Shown in pieces: positions 3,815 through 33,841 of a stretch of DNA of 33,841 nucleotides (position 1 is the first letter of the stretch; every line of letters starts with the position of its first letter). A model generated the notes under the pieces. The model saw only the letters and a list, made by a program, of their open reading frames with translations, ran no database searches and was not told the origin of the DNA. Origin of the DNA: Nitrospirota bacterium (GTDB lineage: Bacteria > Nitrospirota > UBA9217); NCBI GenBank assembly GCA_035516965.1, contig DATIZR010000104.1:1-33841 (forward strand), given 5' to 3'. Both the position numbers and the translations under genes were made by a program.

Positions 3815-5749
3815 ATGAGTGAAATACAACTCAGGCTGCCTGACGGTCAGGACAGAAAGTATGCCTCTGGCATCACCGGTCAGGAAGTTGCCGAGAAGAT
3901 CGGCTCTCGCCTCGCGAAAGACGCTCTTGCCATAAAATTAGACGGTCAACTCCAGGATCTCAACATCCCCGTTGATCACCCTGCTGCGGTAGAGATCGTT
4001 ACGTTCAAGTCGCAGGAAGGCCGCGATGTGTACTGGCACAGCACGTCGCACCTGATGGCGCACGCGGTCAAGCAGCTCTTCCCGCAGTCCCGGCTCGCGA
4101 TCGGTCCGGCCATCGAGGAAGGGTTTTACTACGACTTCGACATCGAGCGCCCCCTGACCCCGGAGGACCTCGAGAAGATCGAGAAACGGATGTCCGAACT
4201 GGCAAAGGCGGCGATGCCGGTCGTCCGGAAGGCGATCCCCAAGGCTGATGCCTTGACGTTCTTTCAAAAAAAGGGCGAGACCTACAAGGTCGAGCTCATT
4301 AATGAGCTTCCCGAGAGTGAGGCAATCTCGATCTACGAGCAGGGAGAGTTCGCGGACCTCTGCCGCGGACCCCATGTCCCGAATACAGGAAAGATCAAGT
4401 CCTTCAAGCTGCTTTCCATTGCCGGCGCGTACTGGCGGGGCAGCGAAAAGAACAAGATGCTCCAGCGCATCTACGGCATCTCGTTCCCGGCAAAGGACGA
4501 GTTGGACGCCTATCTCACGCGGCTCGAGGAGATCAAGCGTCGCGACCACCGGAAGATCGGCAAGGACCTGGACCTGTTCTCGATCTCCGAAGAGTCCGGC
4601 GGCGGCCTGGTCCTGTGGCATCCCCGGGGAGCGCTGATCCGGAAGACCATCGAGGATTTCTGGCGCGACGAGCATCAAAAGACCGGCTACGATTTCGTGT
4701 TTTCTCCCCATGTTGGCCGCGCAACGCTCTGGGAGACGTCCGGACACCTCGGCTTCTACCGGGAGAACATGTATTCGTCCATGGATGTGGAAGGGCAGGA
4801 GTATTATGTGAAGCCCATGAACTGCCCTTTCCATATCATGATCTACAAGAACAAATTGCGCTCGTACCGGGAGCTCCCGCTCCGGTACGCAGAACTGGGC
4901 ACGGTCTACCGCTTTGAGCGGTCGGGCGTGCTGCACGGCCTCCTGCGCGTGCGGGGATTCACCCAGGACGACGCTCATATTTTCGTGGCGCCCGAGGACA
5001 TGGAAGCAGAGGTCGTCCGTGTCCTCGAATTCGTCGTAAAGATGCTCAGGACCTTCGGGTTCGATGATTTTAAGGCATACATCGCGACAAAGCCCGAGAA
5101 GTCGGTGGGCGATGAAACGATGTGGGAAAAGGCGACACAGGCGCTCAAGGTTGCCGCGGACAAGGCTGGCCTCGGGTACGAGATGGACGAGGGCGGCGGC
5201 GCTTTCTACGGGCCGAAGATCGATATCAAGATCAAGGACGCTCTGGGTCGTCTCTGGCAGTGCTCCACGGTGCAGTTCGATTTCAACGAGCCGGAGCGGT
5301 TCGGCATGACCTTCGTCGGCGTTGACAACCAGCCGCACCGGCCGTACATGATTCACCGGGCGCTGCTTGGGTCTATCGAGCGATTCTTCGGCATGCTGAT
5401 AGAACACTACGCAGGCGCGTTCCCCGTATGGCTCGCGCCGGTCCAGGCCAAGGTGCTGCCCATCACGGACAAGCAACTGGACTTTGCGAAGGCCGTGCGT
5501 GACACCCTGCTCGCAGCGGGCATCCGGGCCGAACTGGACAACCGCTCCGAAAAGATCGGGTTCAAGATCCGCGAGGCATCGCTCGAAAAGGCGCCCTATA
5601 TCCTGGTCATCGGCGACAAGGAGGTCCAGCAGAACGCCGTGGCCGTCCGTGAACGGGGCGGCAAGGACCTCGGCGCGATACCGGTCCAGGCCTTCATCGA
5701 TCAAGTACTGACGAAAATACGCGATAAAAGCATCGTAACAGAACTGTAA
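3815..5749 (+). CDS. thrS: Threonyl-tRNA synthetase
   Basis: This class II synthetase charges tRNA-Thr in the cytoplasm. Its 644 residues match the usual bacterial length. An N-terminal TGS domain (1-62) is followed by the editing domain with HxxxH (H79 and H83) and a CRGPH segment near 183-187. The catalytic core has the zinc-binding Cys in MNCPFH, motif 2 (RFERSGVLHGLLRVRGFTQDD) and motif 3 (HRALLGSIERF). An anticodon-binding domain ends the protein. The start fits the family N terminus but has no recognisable Shine-Dalgarno. The mRNA appears to be co-transcribed with tRNA-Val, so tRNA 3' processing would leave a 28-base leader. It heads thrS-infC-rpmI-rplT, a conserved order. No T-box leader is present. 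Confidence 0.97.
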   Translation: MSEIQLRLPDGQDRKYASGITGQEVAEKIGSRLAKDALAIKLDGQLQDLNIPVDHPAAVEIVTFKSQEGRDVYWHSTSHLMAHAVKQLFPQSRLAIGPAIEEGFYYDFDIERPLTPEDLEKIEKRMSELAKAAMPVVRKAIPKADALTFFQKKGETYKVELINELPESEAISIYEQGEFADLCRGPHVPNTGKIKSFKLLSIAGAYWRGSEKNKMLQRIYGISFPAKDELDAYLTRLEEIKRRDHRKIGKDLDLFSISEESGGGLVLWHPRGALIRKTIEDFWRDEHQKTGYDFVFSPHVGRATLWETSGHLGFYRENMYSSMDVEGQEYYVKPMNCPFHIMIYKNKLRSYRELPLRYAELGTVYRFERSGVLHGLLRVRGFTQDDAHIFVAPEDMEAEVVRVLEFVVKMLRTFGFDDFKAYIATKPEKSVGDETMWEKATQALKVAADKAGLGYEMDEGGGAFYGPKIDIKIKDALGRLWQCSTVQFDFNEPERFGMTFVGVDNQPHRPYMIHRALLGSIERFFGMLIEHYAGAFPVWLAPVQAKVLPITDKQLDFAKAVRDTLLAAGIRAELDNRSEKIGFKIREASLEKAPYILVIGDKEVQQNAVAVRERGGKDLGAIPVQAFIDQVLTKIRDKSIVTEL

Positions 5750-12358: not shown

Positions 12359-13885
12359 TCACACCCGTGAACGGGGCTTGATCAGAACGAGGATGCCGAC
12401 CAGACAGCACAGATACGAGAACACATCGCCGTAACGGGTGTAGAAGGTCTTTTTCGAGCCGGGAGTAAGCGTCTGGGACAGGTATGCTTCGGTGAAGATG
12501 GGGGAGGCTGAAAGAATGCGGCCGTTCGCATCGATAAAGCCCGATATGCCCGTGTTCGCCGCGCGCGCTATGGGCACCCGGTTCTCGACCGCACGGAACA
12601 CGGCCATCGTAAAATGCTGGTAAGGCGCGGCGGTCTTCCCGAACCAGGCATCGTTCGTGATCGTCGTGATGACGGATGCCCCGCGGTCAACAAAGCGCCT
12701 CACCAGGTCCGGGAATATGATTTCATAACAAATAACGGTGCTGATGGTCACGTTCTTCCGGTCCGCGCCGCGCACCGGCACCTTCATGACGGTAAAGTCG
12801 GTGCCGGACGCGAAGTCACCGATGGCCTGCACCATCTTTTCGACAAAGAACAGCACGCTCTTGAGCGGCACGTATTCGCCGAAGGGGACGAGGTGGAACT
12901 TGTCGTACTCCGCATCGATCTCTCCGTCGCCCCTCACGAGGAAGGCGGAATTGCGCAGAATGACCGACCCCCGACCCCTCAGTTCATAAGTGGGGCTTCC
13001 GAAGAGGATCGGCACCCCCCCTTGCTTGACGAACTCCTTGAGCTCTTTCGTCAGTTGCTGGTCCCGGGGGGCGACGCCCCCGAAATAGAATGGCGTAGCT
13101 GTCTCCGGCCAAAGAACGAGATCAGGCTTCTGTCCGAGCGCTTCCGACGTTAATCTCTTGTACACGCTGATGGTCTCGCTCTGATATGCCGGGTCCCACT
13201 TTTTGTCCTGCTCGATGTTTCCCTGGACCACGGATATCCTGATCCTGTCTGTGCCTTCATCGGCGTGAAGCCGTGAGAACCCGTACCCGAGTGTAAGCGA
13301 CAGGATAACGACGGCCGGCAGCAGGACGGCGATCTTCTTTCTGTCCCGGATGAATTCTGAGATCGAAGCGTTGACCAGCACAATGAGGAACGAAACCCCA
13401 TACACGCCGGTCATATCCGAGATCTGTATGACCGGCAATATCCGGTACTGCGTGTATCCCAGAAGCGCCCAGGGGAATCCGCTGAAAACATAAGTCCTCG
13501 CCAGCTCGAGCGCGGTCCAGAGAGCGGGGGCGGCGATGAACAGAAGCGAAGGCCGGTGGCGCCGGACATGAACGACGAGCGACGCGAACAGGGCAGGATA
13601 GAGGGCCAGGTATGCGCAGAGCAGCAGCGTGATGAGGGACGCCGGGATGATCGGAACATTTCCGTAATAGTGGACCGAGTTCGTGACCCAATGGACGGTT
13701 CCGGCAAAGAACACGATGCCGCTGATACCGCCCAGAAAGAGGCCGTTTCTGACGTTCTGTCCATTCAGCGCGAGGAATAGGGGGATAAGGGCGACCCAGG
13801 CAAGGACAGGGAGAGCAACGGAGGGGAACGATGCGGCGAGCAGAATGCCTGAAGCTGCTGCAAGCGCCGTGGTGCGGAGATTCAT
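12359..13885 (-). CDS. lnt: Apolipoprotein N-acyltransferase
   Basis: Lnt adds the third acyl chain to lipoproteins at the outer face of the inner membrane. The 508-residue protein has a membrane half of about six helices (1-205) and a nitrilase-type periplasmic domain with the Glu-Lys-Cys triad: E261 (LWPETATPFYF), K329 (DKFHLVPFGEYVP) and C386 (VICYEIIFPD). A final C-terminal helix (about 485-503) ends the protein. The length matches the family. It begins almost directly after the Hfq-like gene at 13887 and is probably in one operon with it and prfB. Confidence 0.95.
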   Translation of the reverse strand: MNLRTTALAAASGILLAASFPSVALPVLAWVALIPLFLALNGQNVRNGLFLGGISGIVFFAGTVHWVTNSVHYYGNVPIIPASLITLLLCAYLALYPALFASLVVHVRRHRPSLLFIAAPALWTALELARTYVFSGFPWALLGYTQYRILPVIQISDMTGVYGVSFLIVLVNASISEFIRDRKKIAVLLPAVVILSLTLGYGFSRLHADEGTDRIRISVVQGNIEQDKKWDPAYQSETISVYKRLTSEALGQKPDLVLWPETATPFYFGGVAPRDQQLTKELKEFVKQGGVPILFGSPTYELRGRGSVILRNSAFLVRGDGEIDAEYDKFHLVPFGEYVPLKSVLFFVEKMVQAIGDFASGTDFTVMKVPVRGADRKNVTISTVICYEIIFPDLVRRFVDRGASVITTITNDAWFGKTAAPYQHFTMAVFRAVENRVPIARAANTGISGFIDANGRILSASPIFTEAYLSQTLTPGSKKTFYTRYGDVFSYLCCLVGILVLIKPRSRV

Positions 13886-22681: not shown

Positions 22682-24373
22682 CTAATGGCCTCCTGCAGCC
22701 GCGGGAGCCGCCTTCGGCGCCATGGCATCAGCGAGGATCTTGATCCCTTTCTGAGATTCATCAACGGACCGCGTCAAGGATTCTCGCGCCAGTTCGGGGT
22801 TGTGGAAGCCGTCTGAGTTCTCCGCAGTCCAGTATTCCCACAGGATATGGGCCCGGAGGTGCTGGTCCTGCGCCTGCTTGATGACTTCGGGATCCACACC
22901 GGCCTTCCTGGCCTCAACGATCTTGTCGATGAGCGCCGAAAGCCAGAATTCGGCTTTTCTCATCTTTCCCTTTCCGTAGGCCTTGATCGAGTCGATGGTG
23001 TACTTTGCCTGCTCTTCGGTCCACGAAGGGTGGCACTTCGCTGCCAGACAGGTCTCCTTCAGCTGGACCCGCGGCGTCACGGCAAAATGGGAGGTGAAGG
23101 TCTTGCCGGTTTTCTTGTCCGTGACCCTGGGTGTGTGGCAGGCGGCGCAGCCGACGCCCGCTTTGGCGTGCTTAGAATTGTAGTATGTTTCAGCCTCGGG
23201 ATGCTGGGCTTTCCACAGGAGCCCACCGGTGAGCCCGTGCTTGAAGTCGAGGAAGCCCACCTGCTTCACATAGTGGTCATAGAGCCCCAGCACGTTCTTA
23301 AAGGGGAAATGGTTGGTCCGCGGGTCCGCCATGGTCACGCTGTACTTGGAAGTATCGGGATTCTTCGGGTCGTACCCCGGGTTGCAATTGTACTCGACAT
23401 GGCACTGGCCGCACTGGAGCCGGGTGTCGTATTTCTCAAGGATCGCTATCTTTCTCGTGAAGCCGCGCGTGCCCATTTCGATGACCTTGAAGTTCGTGTG
23501 ATTGGGGTCCTGATGCCAGACCGTGTCCGCCTCGGGCCTTGTCAGTGCCTGGATCAGGGCGTCCCGGACGATGCGGGGCTTCGCGGCGTGAGGGTCGTGG
23601 CAGTAAAAGCAGTTCAGTCCGTATTGGAGGTCCCGGACGAGCTCAACGGGCCTAGAGGTGCGCGACCATTGCGCCCCTGGGACGGGCTCTCCCAGGTAGG
23701 ACCATTTGAGAATCAGGTCCTGGGACTTGCACTGGAGGCAGACCGGGTTTGCCGCTGTCGCGCTCTGGGGCATGAAGGTCTTCTGGTCGCTTGTCCCGGG
23801 CTCCCGGTCCATCAGAATATCCCATGCCTTTCCCTTTTCGAGCACATAGGTCCATCCGTTTTTCGGCTGGAACCTGCCGCCGTAGGCCCGGTCAACCACG
23901 AGGTGGTCAGGCAGCATGTTGACGTGGCTTCTTGTGAGATTATGCTCCTTCGTAAATCCGTGGCCCATCATAAGCTTATCCCAGAAGGGGTTGGGTGCGC
24001 GATTCGTGAGCTGCGACTTCTCGTCCCGCGCGGGGCGGTGATAGGCCTCCTGCATGAAGCTGTCATACTGCTCCTTGTGACAACTTCCGCATGCCTCCCA
24101 GGACACGTCCGTGACGGGACGCGTGTCAGGACCCGGGTTCTCCAGGTGTTTGGCCAGACCGGAATGACAGCTGGCGCAGTTTATCTTCGCGTGTTTTCCC
24201 AGGGTATGGAGTTGCTTGATCTTGTCATGACATCCGTAGCAAGTGTCTACGGCTACGTTTTTTTCTGGCGTTTTTTTCGCGTTTCCCCCGTACTGCGCAC
24301 CCACGTCCTTGATCCAGATGACAAGAGCGAACACGACGATAAAGGGAACGAGAACGCCAATTGTTTTCTTCAT
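22682..24373 (-). CDS. Octaheme cytochrome c nitrite reductase (ONR type)
   Basis: The 563-residue exported protein (signal segment about 1-26) has eight heme sites: CYGCH (45-49), CASCH (66-70), CGSCH (95-99), CLQCK (212-216), CFYCH (255-259), CGQCH (321-325), CAACH (409-413) and an unusual CX4CH (442-448). The fourth, lysine-ligated site is the catalytic heme position of octaheme nitrite reductases. Y328 and C330 (CHVEYNC) match the Tyr-Cys crosslink pair known from Thioalkalivibrio ONR. Q390-H391 (AQHPE) match its active-site Gln-His. The family reduces nitrite and hydroxylamine to ammonia in the periplasm. Pentaheme NrfA is excluded by the heme count. The C terminus is a Pro/Ala-rich tail. 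SD GGGAGG precedes the start. Confidence 0.9.
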   Translation of the reverse strand: MKKTIGVLVPFIVVFALVIWIKDVGAQYGGNAKKTPEKNVAVDTCYGCHDKIKQLHTLGKHAKINCASCHSGLAKHLENPGPDTRPVTDVSWEACGSCHKEQYDSFMQEAYHRPARDEKSQLTNRAPNPFWDKLMMGHGFTKEHNLTRSHVNMLPDHLVVDRAYGGRFQPKNGWTYVLEKGKAWDILMDREPGTSDQKTFMPQSATAANPVCLQCKSQDLILKWSYLGEPVPGAQWSRTSRPVELVRDLQYGLNCFYCHDPHAAKPRIVRDALIQALTRPEADTVWHQDPNHTNFKVIEMGTRGFTRKIAILEKYDTRLQCGQCHVEYNCNPGYDPKNPDTSKYSVTMADPRTNHFPFKNVLGLYDHYVKQVGFLDFKHGLTGGLLWKAQHPEAETYYNSKHAKAGVGCAACHTPRVTDKKTGKTFTSHFAVTPRVQLKETCLAAKCHPSWTEEQAKYTIDSIKAYGKGKMRKAEFWLSALIDKIVEARKAGVDPEVIKQAQDQHLRAHILWEYWTAENSDGFHNPELARESLTRSVDESQKGIKILADAMAPKAAPAAAGGH

Positions 24374-28766: not shown

Positions 28767-28952
28767 AGATTTTATTGCCGATCTTACCAATTCGTATGAT
28801 GGCCGTTCGATGCGTCGCTCTGCAGCAAAAAACCCCCAATTTTAACGAAAGGAGAAGGCCGCTGGCGGCAGTACTGAATTCATGCCGGATCATTCATCCG
28901 ATCAGCAGTGACCGAACTTGTTTTATTAATTAACGATCCGAAAGGAGAATGT

Positions 28953-29849
28953 ATGAGGAATTGGTTGAACGCAACTCTGCTGCTTTTGTTCACCGCTGTT
29001 CTGGTCCCCGCCGCGCACGCGGCGACGGATGCCGCGACCTGTCTTGGCTGCCACGGGTCCATGGAAGGGTCCGTGAATGTCAACCAGGAGAAGTATGCGA
29101 AGTCGGTACATGGCTCCTTTGATTGCGTCATGTGCCACATGCAGTTGAAAGGGGACCAGCACAAGGGGCTTACGGGACATGCCGACAAGGCCACGCAGGA
29201 ACTCGGTGCCCTGATTGCCGCCAAGAGCAAGATCGATCCCATTGCCCAGGCGGCCTGCGCGCAGTGCCACGGAGAAATCTATCAGGCCTACAAATCGAGC
29301 GTTCACGGGAAGAACGTCATCGTCAAGAAGTCCTCCGACGGTCCGGTCTGCACGAGCTGTCATGGTTCTCCGCATTATATCCAGCCAAAGTCCAGCAAGG
29401 AATCTGCGGTAAACCATTTCAACGTGGTTCAGACCTGCGGCCAGTGCCATGAAGAAAAGTTCATGTCCGAGAAGTACGGGTTCTCGCCCCTGGTCATGGA
29501 TCGCTATCTGGAGAGCTTTCATGGCAGGAAGCTGAAGGTCGGTCATATGAACGCTCCGGCGTGCCCGAATTGTCACGGTGCCCATGACATCAAGAGCGAT
29601 AAGGACCCCTCATCGCCCGTTGTCGGCGAGAATAAGGTCAAGACCTGCTCGAAATGCCACGCTGGTGCCACGAGAAAATTCGTTGCCGCGATCACGCACA
29701 AACCGCTTAATCCGGTCGCGCACTTCGTGGAACTCGCCCTCGTCGTCCTCACGATGAGCGTGTTCGTCTTCATCTGCGTTCATGTGCTCCTCGATATCTT
29801 TGCGGACGTCCGCGATCGCCTGTTCAAGAAAGGAGACAAACATGAATAA
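28953..29849 (+). CDS. Membrane-anchored heptaheme cytochrome c
   Basis: The 298-residue protein has a cleavable signal peptide (about 1-24) and seven CXXCH sites: CLGCH (30-34), CVMCH (58-62), CAQCH (102-106), CTSCH (133-137), and then CGQCH, CPNCH and CSKCH. Many extra His residues are available as distal ligands. One C-terminal membrane helix (about 262-285) leaves a short basic cytoplasmic tail. All hemes are therefore periplasmic. It overlaps the next gene by 8 bases (ATGAATAA), so the two are translationally coupled and very likely form one quinol-linked complex. No NapC/NrfH family signature is evident. AAAGGAG precedes the start. Confidence 0.88.
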   Translation: MRNWLNATLLLLFTAVLVPAAHAATDAATCLGCHGSMEGSVNVNQEKYAKSVHGSFDCVMCHMQLKGDQHKGLTGHADKATQELGALIAAKSKIDPIAQAACAQCHGEIYQAYKSSVHGKNVIVKKSSDGPVCTSCHGSPHYIQPKSSKESAVNHFNVVQTCGQCHEEKFMSEKYGFSPLVMDRYLESFHGRKLKVGHMNAPACPNCHGAHDIKSDKDPSSPVVGENKVKTCSKCHAGATRKFVAAITHKPLNPVAHFVELALVVLTMSVFVFICVHVLLDIFADVRDRLFKKGDKHE

Positions 29850-30552
29850 GACCGTACCGGCAGAGATCGAGAGGTTTGACCTCTCCGCCAGGATCCAGCA
29901 TGTTATCATGTTCACGACGTTCCTGCTCCTGTCCTTCACGGGCTGGGGCCTCAAGTATGCCTATCAGGACCCGGCCAGCGCCTGGATCAGCTTCTGGGGC
30001 GGGGCCAAAATGGCCGGCATCATCCACCGCGTCGCGGGCATCACCATGCTGCTCGATTTCGCGTATCACCAGTTCTACCTGATCAACAAGGCGCGCAAGG
30101 GAGATTTCCGGTGGTCCCTGATCCCCATGCCGAAGGATGTCGTCGACCTGTTCAACAATTTTCTGTACTTCTTCGGCCTCAGGAAGGAAAAACCCTATTT
30201 CGGGAAGTTCAACTACATGCAGAAGTTCGATTACTGGGCGGTCTACTGGGGCATGTTCATTATCGGCGCGTCAGGGTTCTTCCTCGCATTCCCGGTGACC
30301 GTGTCGTCGATCTTCCCCGTCTGGACGATCCAGTGGATCTGGGATGTTATCTTCGCAATGCACAGCGATGAGGCGCTGCTCGCCATTGTGTTCATCCTGA
30401 TCTTCCATTTCTATAATGAACACCTGCGGTCCGAAGTCTTCCCGATGAACTGGATGTGGCTCACGGGAAAGATGAGCATCGACCAGCTGAAGCACCACCA
30501 TCCTGCGGAATATGACCGGCTGTACGGGGATAAACCGCAGAACAAGAAATAA
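29842..30552 (+). CDS. Cytochrome b subunit (formate dehydrogenase gamma/b561-like)
   Basis: The 236-residue membrane protein has four hydrophobic helices and conserved His pairs for two b hemes: H19 (ARIQHVIMF), the IIHRVAG and FAYHQFYLI histidines, and FHFYNEHLRSEVFP near the end. It resembles the cytochrome b/b6-type subunits that exchange electrons with the quinone pool. The product of the preceding overlapping gene supplies seven periplasmic hemes. Together they probably move electrons between menaquinol and a periplasmic acceptor such as the octaheme nitrite reductase encoded 4.6 kb away. That link is inference. Confidence 0.88.
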   Translation: MNKTVPAEIERFDLSARIQHVIMFTTFLLLSFTGWGLKYAYQDPASAWISFWGGAKMAGIIHRVAGITMLLDFAYHQFYLINKARKGDFRWSLIPMPKDVVDLFNNFLYFFGLRKEKPYFGKFNYMQKFDYWAVYWGMFIIGASGFFLAFPVTVSSIFPVWTIQWIWDVIFAMHSDEALLAIVFILIFHFYNEHLRSEVFPMNWMWLTGKMSIDQLKHHHPAEYDRLYGDKPQNKK

Positions 30553-30570: not shown

Positions 30571-30607
30571 TAAAAAACGGCGGCTCTCTTCAGAGGCCGC
30601 CGTTTTT
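30571..30607. terminator. Bidirectional terminator
   Basis: AAAAACGGCGGC pairs with GCCGCCGTTTTT, extended by TCT/AGA around a CTTC loop with one bulged G. A-rich and T-rich flanks let it stop both the cytochrome unit and the convergent ABC operon. Confidence 0.88.
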
Positions 30608-30632
30608 GTTTGGTGGACGGGATGCTGAGTAC

Positions 30633-31295
30633 CTAGGGGATTCGCTCAAGCGTTCCGTGTTTCATTTTGAGCCTTGTCCCGGCGCGTACCGCGAGTTCCG
30701 AGCTGTGGGTGACCATGATCATCGTCATTTTGTGCTCCCGGTTGACCCGTTCGAAGAACGACATGATCTCTGCCTCGGTCTCCTCGTCGAGGTCGCCTGT
30801 TGGTTCGTCGGCCAGGACGATCTCGGGATCATGAATGAAGGCGCGCGCGATCGCGACCCGCTGCTGCTCGCCGCCCGAAAGCTCCGAAGGATAGCGGTCG
30901 GTCTTGTCTCCCAGGCCGACCATTTGCAGAAGCTTCACGGCGTCAGCCGGGGTCTTATTTCCGCCGAAGACGGTGGGGAGCAGGACGTTTTCCGTGGCAG
31001 TGAGGGTCGGGATGAGGCTGGAGAACTGATACACAAACCCGAACTTCTCATTCCTTAATTTCGAGAGCTTCGTGTCGTTGTAGGACCGGATGTTCGCGCC
31101 ATTGATGAACACGGAGCCCGCATCAGGCAGCGCGATGCCGCCAATGAGGCTCAGCAGCGTGCTTTTCCCGCTTCCCGAATGCCCGACAATGGTCACGAAT
31201 TCGCCCGCCTGAATAACGAGGTCCACGGGCAGCAGCGCCGGGATGGTCTTGCCCGATACCCTATAGGTCTTTGACAGTCCCTTCAGTTCGATCAT
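30633..31295 (-). CDS. MacB/LolD-type ABC transporter ATPase
   Basis: The 220-residue ATPase has Walker A (GHSGSGKST), the signature LSGGEQQR, Walker B plus D-loop (VLADEPTGDLDEET) and the H-loop (MVTHSSELA). The sequence type (PALLPVDLVIQAGEFVTIVGHSGSGKSTLLSLIGG) is that of MacB/LolD ATPases, which work with FtsX-like permeases to drive periplasmic work rather than classical transport. Its permease partner is the first gene of the same operon. The ATG overlaps the stop of the DUF4418 gene (ATGA). Confidence 0.92.
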   Translation of the reverse strand: MIELKGLSKTYRVSGKTIPALLPVDLVIQAGEFVTIVGHSGSGKSTLLSLIGGIALPDAGSVFINGANIRSYNDTKLSKLRNEKFGFVYQFSSLIPTLTATENVLLPTVFGGNKTPADAVKLLQMVGLGDKTDRYPSELSGGEQQRVAIARAFIHDPEIVLADEPTGDLDEETEAEIMSFFERVNREHKMTMIMVTHSSELAVRAGTRLKMKHGTLERIP

Positions 31296-31696
31296 GCGGT
31301 TCCTTTCTTCTGAAGCCTTCTGGCCGAAACAATGAGTGCGACGGCCATGATCAGTCCGGCGATGATGGCAATGAACCTGATCGCCGGGACCATGCCGTAA
31401 TTGCAGGGCATCTGGCTGCTGTGGCAGAATCCGATCTTATCTGGGAGAAAGTAGGATGCGACCGACAGAATTAGTGCGATGCCTCCGCCGGCAAAGGCCA
31501 TCCTCGCCGATTTCACGAGCAGGGTCAGGATTCCGGCCAGCAGGAGCAGGACGCCCACGATCTGCTCGGCGTGCGCCGTGTCCGAACAGTGCATCCTTGC
31601 AAAGCCTTCGTATTCGCAGGCCGGGAGAACATACCGGGGCACGATCATCAGCAGGATGCCGCTGATTATCGCCGTCAGGCCGATCAGCTTCTTCAT
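31292..31696 (-). CDS. DUF4418 family membrane protein
   Basis: The 134-residue protein has four hydrophobic helices. Extracytoplasmic loops carry four cysteines and several histidines: CEYEGFARMHCSDTAHAE after helix 1, and FCHSSQMPC before helix 4. This pattern matches the DUF4418 family, whose function is unknown. Paired Cys/His/Met residues on the periplasmic side suggest metal or redox handling. Its place between NosL and the ABC ATPase, with 4-base overlaps at both ends, supports a shared task. Confidence 0.75.
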   Translation of the reverse strand: MKKLIGLTAIISGILLMIVPRYVLPACEYEGFARMHCSDTAHAEQIVGVLLLLAGILTLLVKSARMAFAGGGIALILSVASYFLPDKIGFCHSSQMPCNYGMVPAIRFIAIIAGLIMAVALIVSARRLQKKGTA

Positions 31697-32097
31697 TGCA
31701 CAGCCTTCATTGCCGCATCAAAATCCAGGGCGCTGCCGTATGCCGCTGCGTCCTTCCTGTCCTGAAACGCAGCAATGCCCCAGCCCATGGGTGAACTGAA
31801 TTTTTTTGCAGACCACACATAGGAGGCGCTCCGCGCGTCAATCCAGGCGCCGCTCGGGAAATCCTTGACCTGGATCCTGACATTTTGCGGTTTTTTTCTG
31901 TTCAGGTACGCGAAAAGGTCGCCAATGTCGCAGAAATAGAGGTCCTTGCCTTCCTCGACGATCTTTGCGGTGAATTTCGACCCCACCTCGAGCATCATGC
32001 CGCACTCCGTGCAGGTAATGGTCTCCGCAACAGTCGGAAGCGCGAACGAAAGAGCCAGTATTGCCGCAAACACGAGAACAAACGATGCCCGCTTCAT
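31693..32097 (-). CDS. NosL-family copper-binding protein
   Basis: The 134-residue exported protein has a signal peptide (about 1-24) followed by C29-x2-C32-G-M34 (TCTECGMML). This matches the NosL family, whose M/C-rich CGM motif binds Cu(I). YFCDIGDLFAYLN and the SPMGWGIAAF segment are also typical. Classical NosL is a lipoprotein that supplies copper to nitrous oxide reductase. Here the cleavage region looks like signal peptidase I rather than a lipobox, and no nosZ, nosD, nosF or nosY is present. A copper-chaperone role for another periplasmic target is likely. The gene overlaps DUF4418 and follows the TPR gene by one base. Confidence 0.82.
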   Translation of the reverse strand: MKRASFVLVFAAILALSFALPTVAETITCTECGMMLEVGSKFTAKIVEEGKDLYFCDIGDLFAYLNRKKPQNVRIQVKDFPSGAWIDARSASYVWSAKKFSSPMGWGIAAFQDRKDAAAYGSALDFDAAMKAVQ

Positions 32098-32098
32098 G

Positions 32099-32689
32099 TC
32101 ATTTCCTCCCCGCGTCGATCTGTTTTTTTAACGTGGCTGCAAGGGGTTCGTCAATGTTCTTCAGCCGGGAGTGTTCTTTCATGGCAGCGTCCCGTTTCCC
32201 CGCCTTGAGATAAGCCATGCCGAGATTGAAGTGGGCGATACCATAGTCCGGGCGCATGGAGATCGCCTTCTGGAGAGCCGCTATCTCCTCGTCTATCTTG
32301 CCCAGCTTGCCGTAGGAGAAGGCCATGTTATTATAGATCATCGGCTGTTTATGCTCGTATTTGGCGGCCTTGGTGAAACTCGCGACCGCCTCCTGATACA
32401 TGCCGAGCCTGTTGTAGGCAGTGCCCAGCTTGAAATGGGCATACCCCATGTCGGGCCGGATGGCGACCACTTTTTTGAGCGTCTCGATCTGCTCCTGATA
32501 CAGGTTCGCGCGTTCATAGAACTCCGCCAGATGGAACTGCGCATCGGCGTCGTTGGGGTTGCTCTGGATCTTTTCCCGCAGCAATTCGATATCGCTCTTC
32601 TGTTCGACGACCGGAGCGCTCTGTTTTTTTTCTTCCGAGCAGGAAAGCATCGTCATCGCCGCAAGGAGCAGTATCACGATATATCTCAT
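32099..32689 (-). CDS. TPR-repeat lipoprotein
   Basis: The 196-residue product has a lipoprotein signal ending MLSC (Cys17) and then a charged linker. About four tetratricopeptide repeats follow, with the usual A-x-F-x-LA, Y and P spacing (for example NPNDADAQFHLAEFYERANLYQE and RPDYGIAHFNLGMAYLKAGKRDAAM). TPR proteins act as docking platforms. A membrane-tethered periplasmic TPR protein in an ABC/NosL operon may hold the client protein or bring NosL to the permease. Its ATG overlaps the permease stop (ATGA). Confidence 0.85.
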   Translation of the reverse strand: MRYIVILLLAAMTMLSCSEEKKQSAPVVEQKSDIELLREKIQSNPNDADAQFHLAEFYERANLYQEQIETLKKVVAIRPDMGYAHFKLGTAYNRLGMYQEAVASFTKAAKYEHKQPMIYNNMAFSYGKLGKIDEEIAALQKAISMRPDYGIAHFNLGMAYLKAGKRDAAMKEHSRLKNIDEPLAATLKKQIDAGRK

Positions 32690-33841
32690 TCCGCGCTCCT
32701 TATGGCCTCATAGGGTTCCGTCCGGATCACCGACAACGACGGCAGCAGCGCCGAAAGCAGCCCGGTGACGAGCGAAAATGAGACGGCCGCCGCGATCAGG
32801 CTTATCAGTTCGACAGGAGACGGGAACAGGTAGGGAAGTTTCAAATTGTGCAGCATCAGGTTCTTGAAGCTGAACAGCAGCCCGAATCCGAGTGCAACGC
32901 CAGCCGCTCCGCCCGTGGCTGAGAGCAGGGCCGCCTCGCTCAGGATGATCGAAGCGATGTGAAGCCGGTTCGCTCCGATCGCCCGGAGGAGGCCGATCTC
33001 CCGCCGCCGTTCGTTCACGATCATGTAGAACGCGAAGGCCATGATCAGGAGCACGATGACCCAGAGAATGCTGCTGATGGCGACGATGGCGTGAATGAGG
33101 CCGGAGAGCTGCTTCCGCACCGTGCTGATGACCGTATCGGACACGAGCGCCTTGACGCCGGGGATGTCATGCTCGATCCTGATGGCTACCCGGTCCGGGG
33201 TGAAGTCCTCGCCGACCTGGACCAGGACCGTCGATATTTTGTCCCTCCCGATCTCGAGCGGCTGTATCGCCTTGGTTTTTGAATTCTGGGCCATCTGATA
33301 CGCGGACTCGAGACTCATGAACGCCGAGCGGTCAAAGAAGTCCATGCCCGTCGGCTCCATCGTGCCTGCAACATGGAAGGTGGTGCCGAAGAAGGGTATG
33401 TTGTCGCCGACGATGACCGGGATCTCCCTCCCCGTGATGATCTCGTTGGCCGCCAGCGGCCGGTTCAGGTGCTTTTCCAGCCACGGCTTCACCGTGAAAT
33501 CCGTCTCGGGATCAAAAGCGATCAGGAAAACGTCCACATTGAAGCAGCAGGTGAAACTGGTGGGCTTGATGAAAAGCTGGGGCGTTGCGCTCTTGACGCC
33601 CTCGATCTTTCTGACCCTGTCGAGCACAGTCTTGTCCATAAGAAAACTGGTCGGCTCCCCGGAAAGGAGGGCGGCCTTCGCGTTCTTTTCGGCGTTTTCG
33701 GGAACCACCAGGATGTCGGCGCCGAGGCGGTAGGTGCCGAGCTTGAGCGCATTATTGATACTGCGCAGGAAGAGGGTGGCGGTGAACAGCGTGCAGGAGA
33801 CTACGGCCACAATAGCCAGCAAAAGCCATGTCCGCGTGATC
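32686..33841 (-). CDS. MacB/FtsX-type ABC permease, 5' end outside the window
   Basis: The frame stays open to the window edge (the last codons read TRTWLLLAIVAVV), so the true start lies beyond. The visible ~385 residues hold the end of the first membrane helix, a large periplasmic MacB_PCD-like domain (about 25-240 of the visible part) and three C-terminal helices. They include the conserved coupling segment NERRREIGLLRAIGANRLHI. The periplasmic domain has an unusual adjacent Cys pair (SFTCCFNVDVFLIAFDPETDF). It would pair with the ATPase at the other end of the operon. MacB/LolCE-type systems transmit ATP hydrolysis to periplasmic movement. Confidence 0.9.
   Translation of the reverse strand, partial: ITRTWLLLAIVAVVSCTLFTATLFLRSINNALKLGTYRLGADILVVPENAEKNAKAALLSGEPTSFLMDKTVLDRVRKIEGVKSATPQLFIKPTSFTCCFNVDVFLIAFDPETDFTVKPWLEKHLNRPLAANEIITGREIPVIVGDNIPFFGTTFHVAGTMEPTGMDFFDRSAFMSLESAYQMAQNSKTKAIQPLEIGRDKISTVLVQVGEDFTPDRVAIRIEHDIPGVKALVSDTVISTVRKQLSGLIHAIVAISSILWVIVLLIMAFAFYMIVNERRREIGLLRAIGANRLHIASIILSEAALLSATGGAAGVALGFGLLFSFKNLMLHNLKLPYLFPSPVELISLIAAAVSFSLVTGLLSALLPSLSVIRTEPYEAIRSAE

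Follow-up and report, generated by a model that had tools for sequence, protein, structure and literature searches.

The window, which is the whole stretch of DNA analysed (33,841 nucleotides) and forms an entire contig (C104) of a Nitrospirota genome, carries in its list of open reading frames a block of five genes on the minus strand between positions 30633 and 33840 (Table 1). Adjacent genes overlap by 4, 4 and 4 bases, apart from a 1-base gap (position 32098) between the TPR and NosL genes. The five proteins match the Pfam models FtsX (67.8 bits), TPR, NosL, DUF4418 and ABC_tran (117 bits), so that coordinates and Pfam both agree with the five genes, joined by 4-base overlaps or a 1-base gap, that were named in the original prediction.

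Table 1. Features of the operon, of its upstream continuation on contig C105 and of the adjoining repeat
Feature	Position	Strand	Remarks
GC-rich inverted repeat	30573..30608	.	flanked by an A-run and a T-run; read by eye
LolD/MacB-like ABC ATPase, 220 aa	30633..31295	-	Pfam ABC_tran; NCBIfam
DUF4418 (PF14387) protein, 134 aa	31292..31696	-	Pfam 67.7 bits, cut-off 27
NosL-family protein, 134 aa	31693..32097	-	Pfam NosL 46.1 bits, cut-off 24
TPR protein, 196 aa	32099..32689	-	Pfam TPR
FtsX/MacB-type ABC permease	32686..33841, start at C105:10594	-	5' end beyond the window
Contig overlap	33701..33841	.	141-base exact identity with the end of contig C105, same genome
Propeller gene	C105/L040:9473-10489		upstream of the permease

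The permease gene runs off the end of the contig and is open at 33840. Within the genome, the overlap with contig C105 is confined to the two contig ends concerned and therefore places a propeller gene upstream of the permease; in the joined sequence it is the next upstream neighbour, at a spacing of about 105 bases. In a related genome, one contig (L018) carries the complete order propeller-FtsX-TPR-NosL-DUF4418-ABC. The five genes are thus present as predicted, but the set was incomplete: because a propeller with a CxxCH motif precedes the truncated permease on C105, the five-gene set is an artefact of the contig edge, and its treatment as a closed set was rejected. The sequence of the inverted repeat suggests that it is likely a bidirectional terminator for the operon and the convergent cytochrome genes. 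The latter encode a multihaem cytochrome c and a cytochrome b561 (window 28908-30552, plus strand) and are a possible electron partner of the propeller. The same multihaem cytochrome c is also encoded downstream of the operon in L018. Another multihaem cytochrome, of the Cytochrom_C552 (NrfA) family (161.6 bits), is encoded at window 22682-24373 on the minus strand.

The full-length permease, read from the joined contigs, has 398 residues, four predicted transmembrane helices and one large periplasmic domain. A vicinal cysteine pair, Cys112-Cys113, lies in the predicted periplasmic domain and is kept in all 52 permeases examined. The permease gene of G117 has an in-frame TAA. The best NCBIfam match of the ATPase is LolD, under the cut-off (232.7 against 307.75 bits). 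The operon proteins of the window scored 42 for LolCE (cut-off 362.45) and 179 for MacB (cut-off 966). MacB and LolCDE share with this system a four-helix permease with a large periplasmic domain and a LolD-like ATPase; they differ from it in that the operon encodes permease and ATPase in separate genes, holds no membrane-fusion protein and has an invariant periplasmic Cys-Cys in its permease. In one family a CAP-domain protein is encoded directly 3' of the ATPase (L017:6612-7253, L019:9495-10112, L097:12531-13148).

The propeller protein on C105 is 338 residues long, is of the exported type and ends in a C-terminal CASCH, an instance of CxxCH, the c-type haem motif. With a hydrophobic N-terminus, read by eye as the export signal, and the CxxCH, it shows these two traits of a c-type cytochrome. 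Sequence and model together suggest an exported protein with a C-terminal c-type haem. All 41 core propellers keep H41, H89, C128, C169, H213, H268, C309, C312, H313 and C330; H38 is present in 85% of the core sequences, and most of the conserved histidines and cysteines persist in ten divergent propellers. In the AlphaFold2 model (pLDDT 82, pTM 0.83), five blades of four strands each are clear, and further strands lie at the N- and C-termini. The start of the innermost strand of a propeller blade lines the hub. According to the DSSP assignment of the model and to repeat position, from which the hub geometry was read, H89, C128, C169, H213 and H268 fall within two residues of this point in five successive blades. 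The conserved histidines and cysteines would accordingly form a ring at the central hub, in which the place of H38 and H41, modelled on a hairpin, is uncertain, and the propeller is probably metal-binding. The best Foldseek matches are general propellers and include no copper enzyme, and a PDB search with the C-terminus returned nothing but general propellers and pieces of enzymes with a propeller, thiocyanate dehydrogenase among them. In the one-contig genome G026 the propeller gene is broken by an in-frame TAG (L104:8261-9019).

The distribution of the system was surveyed in a sample of 396 Nitrospirota-type genomes, with thresholds of at least 500 bits for the permease and more than 130 bits for the propeller (plus one propeller cut at a contig edge). 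The permease was found in 61 genomes, the propeller in 60 and both in 56, the two genes being normally adjacent; DUF4418 exceeded its cut-off in 23 of the 396. The Fisher value for co-occurrence of permease and propeller (4e-57) is descriptive only, since it takes no account of kinship and linked loci had served to build the models. The propeller adjoins the permease at 45 of 48 permease loci, counting L125, whose propeller (38 bits) falls just below the label threshold. Permease and propeller distances correlate with r = 0.87, against 0.49 for the best of 999 permutations, and shared ancestry contributes to this value. Downstream of the 43 core propeller places were found the permease (38), the TPR protein (31), the ATPase (30), NosL (14) and DUF4418 (11), all of them lower bounds because some places lie at contig ends. 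A YeeE-type sulfur transporter (Pfam Sulf_transp) lies upstream of the propeller at no fewer than 14 of these 43 places. Near the propeller of L024 (12675-15138) a second sulfur-transporter-like gene is accompanied by a class V aminotransferase gene resembling cysteine desulfurase. One scan of contigs returned Nitrospirota only. The operon is seen across one bacterial phylum, and permease, ATPase and propeller are the partners that remain constant in it.

The pairing has exceptions on both sides. Five genomes (G003, G004, G006, G193 and G345) hold a permease and no detected propeller; in G003 and G004, which are 100% and 96% complete, the permease occurs with NosL and DUF4418. These genomes argue against a single fixed client and indicate that the machine can serve another client or purpose. 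Some propellers (L087, L088, L090 and L110) stand apart from any permease gene. A strict scan between the propeller and permease genes found perfect-stem hairpins with T-rich tails at 19 of 37 loci, where shuffling of the bases predicts 0.25. It missed the locus of the window itself, in which a long hairpin precedes a T-run. Such terminator-like hairpins fit a propeller made in excess of its machine.

The N-terminal hydrophobic stretch of the TPR protein ends, when read by eye, in a possible non-canonical lipobox (MLSC). The NosL protein, the only one in the window's genome, has a Sec-type signal and no lipobox, both read by eye. Its invariant residues are C29, C32-G-M34 (a CXM motif), C56 and M104, and C32-G-M34 is present in 8 of 8 NosL proteins. 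In P. denitrificans, NosL is a Cu(I)-binding protein, probably through its CXM motif, and a propeller enzyme depends on it for its CuZ centre (PMC6530538). The retained Cu(I)-binding motif supports the earlier description of NosL as a copper protein. DUF4418 was modelled as a four-helix transmembrane bundle with its cysteines in loops on one side; C27, C91 and C98 are invariant and C37 is frequent. A fold search with this model gave nothing significant (best E 0.077). Among plasmids, no DUF4418 was found and the propeller matched only distant propellers. DUF4418 is named in a published expression table, where by locus number it adjoins an ABC permease (PMC7701253).

A core role for NosL and DUF4418 was rejected. 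One or both occur at 21 of 48 permease loci and both are missing at the other 27; L017 and L019 were labelled manually, since overlapping gene models had hidden DUF4418. On the tree of the 48 permeases their presence requires 7 changes, at least 3 of them forced by starred branches. The two genes also occur together without the permease (L016, L127), and DUF4418 occurs alone (L124). The components named in the original prediction thus do occur independently in part, whereas permease and propeller are normally adjacent. NosL, as a Cu(I) protein, and DUF4418, as a Cys-rich four-helix membrane protein, are best read as lineage-specific feeders. The docking site and the metal relay that the original prediction saw in the TPR protein and in DUF4418, respectively, would be hypothetical roles.

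Maturation of a plain nitrous oxide reductase was rejected as the function. In the window's genome, which is 97.7% complete, the NosZ propeller family PF18764 has no member and nothing exceeds the cut-off of TIGR04246 (nosZ); for L-NosZ (NF052460) the score reaches 31.3 bits against a cut-off of 700, with 0 of 14 genomes over it. The operon had been described as lacking nosZ, and this is confirmed. Of 49 genomes with parts of the system, 1 is positive for PF18764, so the gene set is not confined to the company of nosZ. The likeness to NosL/NosDFY-NosZ consists in a NosL with CXM, an ABC machine and a client in the form of a periplasmic propeller that has hub ligands, and sulfur transport near the operon recalls the Cu-S centre CuZ. 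However, the permease is of the FtsX/MacB type (PF02687) and not of the NosY type, NosD is not encoded in the window operon, and the propeller, unlike NosZ, is YVTN-type, carries CxxCH and two hub cysteines and lacks the length needed for a CuA domain. L-NosZ (clade III), hydrazine synthase beta, thiocyanate dehydrogenase and NirN share the propeller fold and weak sequence similarity, but the propeller is far under their family cut-offs. A NosDFY-NosL cluster that lacks NosZ and has other ABC genes is reported for Parageobacillus (PMC13068155).

Besides NosL/NosDFY-NosZ, the closest known kind is FetABCDEF of C. jejuni; it and sifABCDE of B. breve likewise combine FtsX-type permeases, an ATPase and a membrane partner in periplasmic metal handling. 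Two relatives of the window operon have an FtrD-like gene (DUF2318/PF10080), located inside the L094 operon (4371-4820, between the permease and TPR genes) and near the L022 operon (13161-13742); the window operon has none. It differs from these clusters in having neither the FTR1 permease nor P19, a single permease gene, and a propeller in place of P19; NosL and DUF4418 are unreported in those clusters. The system is best read as resembling a NosL-assisted or Fet-like periplasmic service machine, but not as an established member of either kind: apart from the CXM motif of NosL and the FtrD-like genes of relatives, it lacks the defining features of nos and Fet for which it was tested. No description of the propeller-permease pair was found in the open-access literature, subscription papers being outside the search, and the open-access literature combining propeller, FtsX and NosL concerns another system.

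The machine is an ABC system of the MacB/Lol type, of which the propeller is the likely partner, and the predicted dedicated, ATP-using machine acting on an exported client is probably correct. The preferred reading, for and against which the balance is about even, is that this machine acts in the maturation or upkeep of the propeller and supplies it with metal and/or reducing power. The Cys-pair permease and LolD-like ATPase, usually with the TPR protein, would face the periplasm and use ATP to move the periplasmic domain of the permease. Metal and/or reducing power would be handed to the propeller, where a hub cofactor would be built or regenerated. NosL would be the source of Cu(I) in the lineage of the window, with DUF4418 supplying electrons or thiol chemistry. 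The system would thereby unite traits of the NosL of P. denitrificans with those of FetBCD and FetA. Copper is a plausible metal, less so for the family at large, as most loci lack NosL. We infer, rather than observe, the maturation itself, the identity of the metal as copper and the direction of transfer. An unlikely but more far-reaching version of the same reading makes the propeller an undescribed redox metalloenzyme, in which His and Cys together would ligate a copper or copper-sulfur centre at the hub, wired to the C-terminal haem; the machine with the Cys-Cys permease, supplied by NosL, DUF4418 and a sulfur transporter, would be a second, independently evolved propeller-hub copper assembly line besides NosDFY-NosL.

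As copper is deduced from NosL only and NosL is optional, a purely reductive role is a real rival, although a somewhat unlikely one. In this rival, DUF4418, or an FtrD-like protein encoded elsewhere, would act with the machine and its Cys pair to keep the hub cysteines and CxxCH of the propeller reduced, for example for haem attachment, and NosL would be incidental. The invariant vicinal cysteines of the permease, the Cys-rich DUF4418 and the loci without NosL suit such a relay, as do the PF10080 gene found within the operon of L094 and a homologous gene in L107. PF10080 is the domain of FetA, a Cys-containing membrane protein that accompanies the analogous ABC system FetBCD of C. jejuni, for which a relay of reducing power was proposed (PMC10783030). 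However, NosL still has the Cu(I) motif and is found repeatedly in these operons, and haem attachment is already performed by the general cytochrome c maturation systems. It is quite unlikely that the machine instead extracts a lipoprotein or small molecule in the manner of MacB or LolCDE while the propeller acts in the periplasm as a sensor or capture protein. The permease and ATPase are most like LolC/MacB and LolD, and the TPR protein is present at 32 of 48 permease loci; but both proteins score below the Lol and MacB cut-offs, a fusion protein is missing, and the invariant cysteines of the permease and the His/Cys ring of the propeller would be left unexplained. Metal uptake like that of FetMP/P19, with the propeller as scavenger, draws on the ABC system with a Cys-rich membrane partner, as in FetABCDEF, and on the FtrD-like genes of relatives, but is improbable for an operon without FTR1 or P19 genes and with a haem motif unusual in a scavenger.

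If the preferred reading of a maturation machine is right, the propeller would be a metalloprotein widespread in Nitrospirota and matured by an ATP-driven machine of its own, and DUF4418 and the Cys-Cys FtsX permeases would gain a testable role. It would also provide a second system for asking how ABC machines build metal centres, a question that is open for NosZ. A second, different NosL-FtsX-ABC cluster was observed at L094:6531-10296, L101:6788-11097 and L120:4084-7767; it encodes a membrane protein of 332-337 residues with a THHCPFD motif and no Pfam match.
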